Shown here: positions 32,199-35,500 of the stretch, piece by piece | How the letters are laid out: each line of letters opens with the position of its first letter | Position numbering within the stretch: position 1 is the stretch's first letter | Assembly: GCA_025352795.1 (NCBI GenBank) | Contig: JANXSF010000137.1 | Coordinates: 62,001 to 126,000, forward strand | Source of the DNA: Acidobacteriota bacterium | GTDB lineage: Bacteria > Acidobacteriota > Terriglobia > Bryobacterales > Bryobacteraceae | Direction: 5' to 3' | Length of the DNA: 64,000 nucleotides | Translations under genes and position numbers: made by a program | Notes under the pieces: model-generated | Databases searched by the model: none | What the model was told of the DNA's origin: nothing | What the model saw: the letters and a program-made list of their open reading frames with translations, nothing else

Positions 32199-33884
32199 TT
32201 ATTCGCCTTTGATCAGTACCTTACTGGATTCGCCACTCACCACATCGCTCTTCGAAGAAGCATTCAGAGTCTTGTCCCCCCACACCACACTGTTGGCCGC
32301 TGATGTGGCATTTCCCCACACCACGCTATCGCCCCACACTACATTGGTCCCAACCATTACATTGTTGCCCCAAACGACACTGAACGGGGTTGTGGAATCA
32401 CCCCAGACGACGTTTGCTCCAGTAACCAATGTCACCTTTTTTGTAACCGCGTTATACACCGCACTTGGCGACTGCGACGATGCCTTGCCGGTATAGAAAT
32501 CGCTGATCGCTGCGTAGATATCCAGATATCCCGCTCCCACCGTAAAAATATCGTTGCGGATGGTGAAGGTCGATGAACCATCAGTCACACTACTGGTTGT
32601 TGCAAATCCGCGCCAGGCGTTCTTCATTAACAAGTACTTCACTTGGTCTGGCGTGTAGCTGGGATAGTCGTCAAGAAGAAGTAAAACCGCCCCTGTGACA
32701 AATGGCGTAGCCATGCTGGTTCCGCTCAATTGCATATAGCTGTTTGCAGGATCCACTACATTGGCTGGGTTATCGGACTTCAACTTACCACTGCCCAGTG
32801 CCACTATTTTGTTGCCTGGTGCAAGCAGGTCGGGTTTAACGATATGGTCAATGACGCTTGGTCCCTTGGAGCTGTACGATGTGGGCATGTCATCATTCCG
32901 TGTGTCCGTACCGAACGTGTTCGATGCTCCCACGGTAATTACGTAAGGGTCGTTGCCCGGCGAATTGATGGTGCCGTAGCCGTTTGAGTTCCCTTGATTA
33001 TTGCGTCCATCGTTGCCAGCCGCTACCACCACCACAATTCCAGCTTTCCAGGCCGCCTCCACCGCTTTGCAAAGAGGATCGGTCTTGTAGCTTTCGTAGA
33101 CCGGGCGACCGAGCGACAAATTAACAACTCGAATTCTCAGATTCGTCTTTTTGTCAGCTTGGTTCTGAATGATCCATTGCAGGGCGGCAATCACGTAGCT
33201 ATCTTTTCCCACGCCATTATCGTCCAGAACCCGAAGGTTCACGATATCGGCATAGGGTGCCATTCCCCGATATTTCGCAGTTGGAATATCGCTGCCCTCA
33301 CCGTCGCCGGCAATGATTGAAGCCACGTGGGTTCCATGGCCATAGCCATCGGCTGTACTGGTGACTCCGGTAATAAACGACTTCTGAAAAACCAGCCGCG
33401 AAATTGTTCCATCGGCAAAGGCTTCATTGTCATTGATGCCGCTATCAATCACTGCTACCCGAATGCCATACCCGTTGTAGCCCAACATGTTCCACTGCAT
33501 TTCCTGCTGAATTGCTGCTCGACCTTTATTTAGCGTCGGCGCAAGGTCGCGATCCGGTGTAATGTATTCAACCTCAGGATCGGCTGCAATACTAGCTACT
33601 TCAGAGATTGGGATGCGGATAGCCGCACTGTTGATAAAAGAAAGATCGTGGGTTACCCGTACATTCTTTGCATTCCAGGCACGACTACCCAGATGTCGCC
33701 CTCTGGCCTGCTCTTTGAAAGTGACGATTAAATCCACCTCGCCTGAGGTGCCGGATGTTAGCGTTTGTGCAAGGTCAGGAGAAATTTTGGGGGATTGATC
33801 GCTATTGGGTGATTGGCCGAAGCAAAAGCTTGCAACTGCCAAAAAGCCCATTGGAGCAAAAAAAATAGATCTCATAGTTACCAT
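32199..33884 (-). CDS. Secreted subtilisin-like (S8) serine peptidase with VVWG-repeat tail
   Basis: A 561-residue protein if started at ATG 33884 (an alternative at 33875 directly begins the signal peptide MRSIFFAPMGFLAVASFCFGQ; an upstream in-frame start at 33998 is unlikely). An inhibitor-I9-like propeptide (about 50-110) precedes the S8 catalytic domain. The triad is visible: Asp in VAVIDSGI (about 147), His in GYGHGTHVASI (about 185), Ser in LSGTSMATPFVTGA (about 415), with the oxyanion Asn in VAAGNDG. After the catalytic domain comes a tail with five VVWG motifs (ANVVWGDS, FSVVWGNN, TNVVWGDS, SVVWGNA, NSVVWGD). The tail may be a surface-binding or secretion domain. Confidence 0.95.
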   Translation of the reverse strand: MVTMRSIFFAPMGFLAVASFCFGQSPNSDQSPKISPDLAQTLTSGTSGEVDLIVTFKEQARGRHLGSRAWNAKNVRVTHDLSFINSAAIRIPISEVASIAADPEVEYITPDRDLAPTLNKGRAAIQQEMQWNMLGYNGYGIRVAVIDSGINDNEAFADGTISRLVFQKSFITGVTSTADGYGHGTHVASIIAGDGEGSDIPTAKYRGMAPYADIVNLRVLDDNGVGKDSYVIAALQWIIQNQADKKTNLRIRVVNLSLGRPVYESYKTDPLCKAVEAAWKAGIVVVVAAGNDGRNNQGNSNGYGTINSPGNDPYVITVGASNTFGTDTRNDDMPTSYSSKGPSVIDHIVKPDLLAPGNKIVALGSGKLKSDNPANVVDPANSYMQLSGTSMATPFVTGAVLLLLDDYPSYTPDQVKYLLMKNAWRGFATTSSVTDGSSTFTIRNDIFTVGAGYLDIYAAISDFYTGKASSQSPSAVYNAVTKKVTLVTGANVVWGDSTTPFSVVWGNNVMVGTNVVWGDSVVWGNATSAANSVVWGDKTLNASSKSDVVSGESSKVLIKGE

Positions 33885-34078
33885 AAATGCAACTGAGCTG
33901 CCAAACTGAAAACGATGAAAAGAAAGAAAGTGGTTCGGATCTTCTAAGCGACAACTTGTCGCATTCAGGACTTGTTGTCCCATGTAAAATTCGGGCAAAT
34001 CTGCTTAGAGGGGCAGCCACTCGATTGCACAAGACCCAAATTCAGATGTAGTATTAAGGTTAGGGAAGGAGTCCCGGC

Positions 34079-34753
34079 ATGAAATCTATTTTCACCCTCG
34101 CATTTTCGGCATCATTTTTATTGGGCGCTGGTTTACCCGCTACTCAGATCCGTGGCGCTTACGTAGAAGCACGCACCGCCGACGTTTTTACCGGTCCTTG
34201 TTTTGCTAACTCAGAAGTTGGATTGGTAGGCGACCTAGCTGTGTTCGGCTGGAAGATTGAAAAAGGTAGTTACGAAGGCGTCAACCTGGAAGGGTTAGGA
34301 GTTGTTGCAGCCGTCAAGGCATCCTCCACTTTAGGCGACGTTCACCACACATCTTACCCAGTCAAATCTGTTCTTATTATTGATGAAAAAGCCAATGTGG
34401 AACAGCGGCAAGCCTTGCAGAATTTTGCCAAGAGAATGTCAAAGGATCTTCTTCACAACATTGTTCGCGTGGAATACGCGCCGATAAGCCTAACCTTTGA
34501 AAACAACAATGTCCACAGTTCTAAGGCCACTTTGAAGGCAGGCAAGTTTGCCGCAATTGAAACTCGTCCCATTTTTGATGGCGATCATCTTTGCTCCAAT
34601 GAACTGGTTTGGTATCAACCTTTGACCGACGTGGAACATGCCATGCCCGCCTATGCTTTGGCTCACAGCTATAAAGGCGATGCTTTGGGCACCACTTGGT
34701 CCAGCCCGGAAAAGCGCAGTGCTTTTGTAGGCACCTTCCAGTACAACGATTAA
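34079..34753 (+). CDS. Secreted DUF1326-like protein
   Basis: A 224-residue protein with AAGGAG 6 bases before its ATG and a signal peptide (TLAFSASFLLGAGLPA). The mature start IRGAYVEARTADVFTGPCFANSEVGLVGDLAVFGWKI is the signature of DUF1326 proteins. The family is of unknown function; members often occur with metal-related or membrane proteins. The Cys in TGPCF may be functional, and a second Cys is in GDHLCSNE (about residue 175). Divergent from the S8 protease gene and convergent with the PEP-CTERM gene. Confidence 0.8.
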   Translation: MKSIFTLAFSASFLLGAGLPATQIRGAYVEARTADVFTGPCFANSEVGLVGDLAVFGWKIEKGSYEGVNLEGLGVVAAVKASSTLGDVHHTSYPVKSVLIIDEKANVEQRQALQNFAKRMSKDLLHNIVRVEYAPISLTFENNNVHSSKATLKAGKFAAIETRPIFDGDHLCSNELVWYQPLTDVEHAMPAYALAHSYKGDALGTTWSSPEKRSAFVGTFQYND

Positions 34754-34837: not shown

Positions 34838-35500
34838 TCAAGCTTTCTTCGCTCGTAAGCGGGCTAAAACAATGCCAGCACCACCAGCAGCCGCCATGAA
34901 CAGGCTAGTGGGTTCAGGCACCGGCGCTTGAACTCCGATTAAGTTCTGCGCTCCAGCATGGGTTGTTTGATTGAAGTTTTGATAGATGGATACCCCTGAT
35001 GTAACTGAATGCCCTTGGCTCTCCAAAATGTAAGCAGTGGCCAAGTCAATTTGTATTTGTGTTAAACCGATTAAGCTGGTGGCGCTGCTATTCACCAGGC
35101 CTGCACCCGCCGCTAAGCCATCACCGCCGTCGTGCACAATGTCCCAAATTGCAACCTGTAAAGCAAGTCCTGTATCGGCGGAAACCACCGTCGAAAGCCT
35201 GTTGATGTAGAGCCAGGCAGCACGATCTTCATGCCTTACAAGGTTGGGTGTCAGCGGGTCGGAATCGTAGTTTCCGTAGTTAATATCAGTGAACAGATCC
35301 ACACAAAACAGCGGACTGACGCTCACGCTATTGTACTTTCCCAGGATCACACCAGCGAATCCGCCTGCAGTAATTCCATTGTGGTAGTACTGAATATTTG
35401 CTCCCTTACCTCCATCCACGCCGGTTAACGTAAATACTCCAGCTTGCGATGGCGTGGTCAGTAAGATCAATAATCCGAAACTTAAGCAACTATTCTTCAC
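34838..35500 (-). CDS. PEP-CTERM protein with thioester-domain-like (Cys/Gln) signature
   Basis: A 220-residue exported protein with a signal peptide (GLLILLTTPSQA). The C-terminus VPEPTSLFMAAAGGAGIVLARLRAKKA is a textbook PEP-CTERM sorting signal: PEP at 195-197, hydrophobic helix, basic tail. It predicts processing by an exosortase and release to the envelope or exopolysaccharide. The middle has FCVDLFTDINYG (Cys66) and ALQVAIWDIVHD (Gln115, Trp119). The FC(V/I)D and Qx(A)(I/V)W pair matches thioester (TQXA) domains of Gram-positive adhesins, in which Cys and Gln form an internal thioester that binds host or matrix amines. That reading is inference. Confidence 0.88.
   Translation of the reverse strand: MKNSCLSFGLLILLTTPSQAGVFTLTGVDGGKGANIQYYHNGITAGGFAGVILGKYNSVSVSPLFCVDLFTDINYGNYDSDPLTPNLVRHEDRAAWLYINRLSTVVSADTGLALQVAIWDIVHDGGDGLAAGAGLVNSSATSLIGLTQIQIDLATAYILESQGHSVTSGVSIYQNFNQTTHAGAQNLIGVQAPVPEPTSLFMAAAGGAGIVLARLRAKKA

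Follow-up and report, generated by a model that had tools for sequence, protein, structure and literature searches.

A predicted core-only thioester domain joined to a PEP-CTERM sorting signal in Acidobacteriota

Introduction

Could a small acidobacterial PEP-CTERM protein carry a thioester domain (TED), and if so, which of its residues would form the bond? To our knowledge, PEP-CTERM proteins are mostly without an assigned molecular activity. The original prediction for this locus was that a PEP-CTERM signal is coupled to a TED-type domain with a thioester between Cys66 and Gln115. TEDs have been described as occurring exclusively in Gram-positive bacteria (Walden et al. 2015, PMC4450167), and our literature search found no paper combining PEP-CTERM and a thioester domain; five papers in which PEP-CTERM and thioester both occur are titled for other topics. 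Here, we propose that the protein is probably a minimal, stalkless TED protein with a likely Cys66–Gln185 thioester, that it is sorted by an exosortase, and that it acts as a covalent cross-linker or adhesin.

Results

The gene lies in the window, i.e., the whole stretch of 64,000 nucleotides analysed, as an open reading frame at exactly the predicted position. The source genome, from a soil-type acidobacterium, is a 6.05 Mb MAG of 140 contigs with 96.6% completeness, its relatives are labelled Bryobacteraceae, Bryobacter or Acidobacteria, and it contains one copy of the gene. The protein consists of a signal peptide, a single domain of ~170 aa and a PEP-CTERM tail. The predicted motifs FCVDLF with Cys66, AAWLY, and LQVAIW with Gln115, 49 residues past the Cys, are all present, and Cys66 is the sole Cys of the mature protein. 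Ala20, the presumed −1 position of the signal peptide, is 93% conserved among 103 homologues, a set of non-identical sequences. The features are as follows.

34838..35500, minus strand: whole gene for the predicted exported TED/PEP-CTERM protein, 220 aa, GTG start (open reading frame listing; homologues in related genomes)
35441..35500, minus strand: signal peptide, residues 1-20, MKNSCLSFGLLILLTTPSQA (direct reading; Ala20 conservation)
34931..35440, minus strand: predicted TED fold, residues 21-190, with strands A-D, helices 1-3 and strands P-Q (AlphaFold2 model; PDB matches)
35303..35305, minus strand: codon of Cys66, predicted thioester Cys, strand C, FCVD (102/103 conserved; motif definition)
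35156..35158, minus strand: codon of Gln115, Gln of the TQxxΦW-like helix motif, probably supporting rather than bonding (81% conserved; literature role)
35144..35146, minus strand: codon of Trp119, in the same helix motif as Gln115, invariant (103/103)
34946..34948, minus strand: codon of Gln185, predicted thioester Gln (AQNLI), start of the last strand Q (102/103 conserved; structural end points)
34853..34924, minus strand: PEP-CTERM sorting signal, residues 193-216 (PF07589)

The gene neighbours encode an S8 peptidase, a DUF1326 protein, an AP-endonuclease family protein and a leucyl-tRNA-synthetase-like product, the last named by sequence alone. No conserved partner gene was found near the TED gene across the loci compared, and the genus-mate alone retains the gene order. 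As separate observations on these neighbours, the S8 subtilase (window 32199-33998, minus strand) has a C-terminal run of VVWGD/VVWGN-type repeats, which is independent of the TED finding, and the DUF1326 protein (window 34079-34753, plus strand) is apparently exported and convergent with the TED gene.

Structure prediction supports a TED fold, i.e., a β-barrel and a three-helix bundle, for the query domain. An AlphaFold2 model based on an alignment of 20 homologues had a mean pLDDT of 87 and a pTM of 0.78, and within the domain pLDDT was mostly 89-97 except for a loop near residues 131-140. In a Foldseek search of the PDB, the top 14 rows were all TED proteins (best E 3.1e-4) at modest TM-scores of about 0.4, while a Foldseek search of viral structures gave no convincing match. 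Using VIA-align against the PDB, 11 TED entries of both classes were matched with Z 8.4-12.8, the best single structural match being BaTIE 6fwv (Z 12.8), and the next, unrelated, entry had Z 3.2. L083, a member of a distant subfamily without a Pfam TED match, was modelled from its own 23-row alignment (AlphaFold2, pLDDT 89); the top 18 Foldseek rows against the PDB were TEDs, and VIA-align matched 12 TED entries with Z 7.6-10.4 and the remainder with Z 2.7. Thus, the anticipated TED-type domain is upheld at the level of the fold, with both models matching only TEDs above the PDB background.

In the published TED layout, the Cys is on strand C, the Gln/Trp motif on helix 2 and the bonding Gln on strand Q (PMC6194298). 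The modelled order A-B-C(Cys)-D-α1-α2(Gln/Trp)-α3-P-Q(Gln) agrees with this layout. Strand D ends at residue 83 and helix 1 starts at residue 91, leaving a linker of 7 residues, and helix α0, which class I TEDs have between these elements, is absent from the model. Helix 3 ends at residue 160 and strand P starts at residue 170, and the β-sandwich that class II TEDs have inserted between them is likewise absent from the model. With neither the class I helix α0 nor the class II β-sandwich, the query appears to be a TED reduced to its core.

The Pfam TED profile (PF08341), proposed originally as a check, had no match to the query, and on the query's own genome it was silent, as were its controls. 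The profile matched 11 of 20 relatives at E≤1, just one of them above the curated cut-off. This relative, L024, exceeds both Pfam cut-offs, i.e., 22.7 vs 22 for TED and 35.1 vs 20.7 for PEP-CTERM. For calibration, Bacillaceae plasmid TEDs scored 24.5, 15.1 and 25.2 bits on Pfam TED, so that a plasmid protein annotated as a TED reaches only 15.1 bits. Profile-profile alignment to class II TEDs from Bacillaceae plasmids using hhalign was not significant, and neither phmmer nor a profile hmmsearch of PDB sequences found the TEDs of the PDB. Because this sequence support is weak, TED membership rests on the fold, the motif positions and co-conservation.

As for the bonding residues, the Cys motif of TEDs is defined as [YFL]C-hydrophobic-hydrophilic (PMC4450167), and FCVD at Cys66 fits this definition, with the Cys preceded by M, I or other residues in some homologues. 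In TEDs, the bonding Gln lies on a C-terminal strand with the pattern ΦQζΦΦ (PMC4450167, PMC6194298), and AQNLI of the segment AQNLIG at Gln185, a residue overlooked originally, fits this pattern. In the helix motif LQVAIW, the Gln, the spacing and the Trp fit TQxxΦW, and the Thr is replaced. None of the residues of the TQxxΦW motif is fully conserved in TEDs (PMC4450167), and its Gln, which hydrogen-bonds the Cys backbone in solved TEDs, is not essential to the thioester in characterised TEDs (PMC4450167, PMC6194298).

Conservation among the homologues distinguishes the two Gln residues. Among 20 homologues that are 24-41% identical to the query, the only invariant columns are C66, Q115, W119, D124, Q185 and P195, so that the motifs go beyond coincidence. 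Among the 103 homologues, conservation is highest for W119 (100%), C66 (99%), Q185 (99%) and P195 (99%), and Q115 is at 81%. The Cys66 column contains 102 C and one G, the Gln185 column 102 Q and one E, and the Gln115 column 83 Q, 12 N and 8 S; all 20 homologues with Asn or Ser at Gln115 retain Cys66 and Gln185. Both exceptions, the G and the E, occur in one protein, L045, which keeps the helix Gln. At a 50% identity threshold, all 69 representatives have the Cys and Gln185, and 11 of them are without the helix Gln. In a 29-row alignment with members that are 10-39% identical to the query, the Cys, the Trp and Gln185 are the sole invariant columns. A disulfide role for Cys66 was ruled out because a second conserved Cys is absent.

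L045 also draws attention for its setting. On contig C1 of genome G478, at about 1443468-1446500, three PEP-CTERM TED genes (L028, L043/L092 and L045/L094) form a tandem array, and it is in the third gene, L045, that the Cys is changed to Gly and the bonding-position Gln to Glu, while the remaining motifs, including the helix Gln, are kept.

The positions in known structures are consistent with Gln185 as the bonding residue. Cys66 and Gln185 are 119 residues apart, and Cys138 and Gln267 of CpTIE are 129 residues apart. Assuming a gap-free last strand, the VIA end points would place query Gln185 on Gln267 of CpTIE, and L083 Gln184 on both Gln267 of CpTIE and Gln247 of PnTIE; for SfbI, this estimate misses by one residue (Gln261 vs 262). 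In TIEpLS20 of B. subtilis, the modelled thioester Gln256 lies within SYQRLMSS, and VQRLMS of the relatives L023 and L024 equals YQRLMS of TIEpLS20 save for the residue preceding the Gln.

The predicted coupling to a sorting signal was also supported. The query has a PEP-CTERM tail (VPEPTSLFMAAAGGAGIVLARLRAKKA), in which the P-E-P residues are conserved at 99, 97 and 95% among the 103 homologues. PF07589 gave 20.1 bits on the isolated query, slightly below the cut-off of 20.7, and 24.1 bits at the query site in the genome search, over the cut-off; L024, as described, passes the cut-offs for both domains in one protein. In the MAG (G000), 31 sites exceed the Pfam cut-off for PEP-CTERM, the TED gene included. 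Catalogued NCBIfam PEP-CTERM families match the query below their cut-offs and via its C-terminal part only. No exosortase was recognised in the 96.6% complete MAG with three models, and the exosortase profile PF09721 matched in 64 of 101 relatives, among them the genus-mate as well as 8 of the 9 other genomes that gave a TED-protein match in the nearest-genome search. We consider an assembly gap or recent gene loss a likelier explanation than sorting by some other route.

Family members occur repeatedly in Acidobacteriota, and nearly all carry PEP-CTERM at the C-terminus. Because profile A1, which included the PEP-CTERM tail, drew tail-only matches, we switched to the trimmed profiles A2 and A6. 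Matches were found in at least 10 of the 101 nearest genomes, the query's own included; one of these, G053, has an additional second match that is tail-only. A profile of the second subfamily matched in at least 71 of 399 genomes of the class, and a broad profile in at least 28 of 396 genomes across the phylum, all three counts being lower bounds obtained with a loose first filter. Beyond Acidobacteriota, sampling comprised plasmid records and one query-only scan of genome contigs, and no relatives were found in the plasmid records. The closest homologue, from the genus-mate (L002 and L015; 59% identical, gene order kept), has an in-frame TGA mid-domain, which reflects either a pseudogene or a sequence error.

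Discussion

The fold, the motifs, the co-conservation and the sorting signal of the query are supported by the computations presented here. Beyond these, we infer thioester formation, exosortase processing, reactivity, a partner and covalent adhesion in the following scheme. The protein would be exported via Sec and would then fold as a TED, in which an internal thioester most likely forms between Cys66 and Gln185 with loss of ammonia. An exosortase would handle the PEP-CTERM tail, delivering the protein to the cell envelope or to extracellular polymer. SfbI bonds fibrinogen by lysine attack on its thioester (PMC4450167); by analogy, an amine (lysine) of a partner may attack the buried thioester of the query to form an isopeptide bond between Gln185 and the partner, and the protein would thus act as a covalent cross-linker or adhesin. 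Several results speak against this proposal: Pfam TED does not match the query, the profile-profile comparison with class II TEDs is not significant, the Foldseek TM-scores are modest, the stalk of Gram-positive TED adhesins is missing, and an exosortase was not recognised in the MAG. In a broader form of this proposal, which we hold only tentatively, the stalkless, class-less minimal TEDs of the diderm Acidobacteriota would possess real thioesters and would be exosortase-sorted cross-linkers of the envelope or extracellular matrix, and their thioesters may become exposed or armed when exosortase itself releases or anchors them. Since only about 10 residues separate strand Q and the sorting motif, we speculate that exosortase processing could affect exposure of the thioester.

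The thioester as originally placed, between Cys66 and Gln115, is barely tenable. Both residues are invariant in the 20 closest homologues; however, 20 of 103 homologues carry Asn or Ser in place of Gln115 and retain both Cys66 and Gln185, while the sole homologue without the Cys has also lost Gln185 yet keeps the helix Gln. Together with the C-terminal-strand position of the bonding Gln in TEDs, which corresponds to Gln185, and with the inessential, hydrogen-bonding role of the helix Gln in solved TEDs, this variation at Gln115 and the co-conservation and co-loss of Cys66 and Gln185 led us to reject Cys66–Gln115 as the bonding pair. We also regard it as very improbable that the conserved Cys and Gln serve another role, e.g., as a hydrogen-bond pair or in a metal or cofactor site, with a thioester never forming. 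Predicted structures do not display covalent chemistry, but the fold, the motif positions and the co-loss all coincide with a TED bond, and the top conserved columns show no further metal ligands.

A less remote, although still unlikely, reading is that the domain is no adhesin and instead has a structural function in the envelope or matrix, in which the thioester forms but stabilises the domain, stays unreacted, or joins a fixed partner in the cell's own envelope. Being stalkless and adjoining the membrane anchor, the domain would be poorly placed to reach other cells, and the absence of a conserved partner gene nearby also favours this reading. However, known TED thioesters add little stability (PMC6194298), and the near-invariant Cys and Gln speak for a bond that is used. 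We favour a reactive Cys66–Gln185 thioester.

Compared with known systems, the query shares the barrel and three-helix core with class I TEDs (CpTIE 5a0g, SfbI 5a0l, Cpa 4c0z and 2xi9, FNE 5dcq; PF08341), as well as the Cys on strand C, the Gln on strand Q, a similar Gln/Trp helix motif and a short linker of about 10 residues that joins helix 3 to strand P. It differs from them by the 7-residue linker in place of α0, by having neither LPXTG nor an isopeptide stalk, by its diderm host, and by a helix motif that starts with LQ rather than TQ. Class II TEDs (BaTIE 6fwv, SaTIE 6fx6, EfmTIE86 6fwy and TIEpLS20 of Bacillus subtilis; PF20610/PF08341) also are without α0, and TIEpLS20 has the QRLMS motif in common with L023 and L024; by contrast, the query is without the inserted β-sandwich, and the profile-profile match is not significant. 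Gram-positive TIE adhesins combine an isopeptide/ester stalk with an LPXTG anchor, whereas the query has neither and is a single domain with a PEP-CTERM C-terminus; a Pfam scan of the query found no isopeptide/ester stalk domain. Like other PEP-CTERM/exosortase substrates (PF07589, TIGR02595), the query has a signal peptide, a short extracellular domain, the PEP motif, a membrane segment and a basic end. With complement-type thioester proteins (C3, α2-macroglobulin), described as unrelated to bacterial TEDs in sequence and structure, it has only the internal thioester chemistry in common (PMC6194298).

Covalent-attachment chemistry is probably present in this diderm group, for which the literature searched contained no report of it. 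If our proposal is correct, covalent surface attachment would extend to diderm bacteria through another sorting system, a group of uncharacterised PEP-CTERM proteins would gain a testable biochemical activity, and the stalkless TED would be a very small natural scaffold for thioester chemistry.

Because L024 exceeds the Pfam cut-off, some relatives may already carry a TED label in databases. A subfamily of PEP-CTERM proteins, including L083, L079, L084, L101, L029, L099 and similar proteins, has no Pfam TED match; its Cys-containing motif is often CDD, followed by PQEFIG. With the TED fold predicted for L083, this subfamily is a candidate for a new Pfam family.
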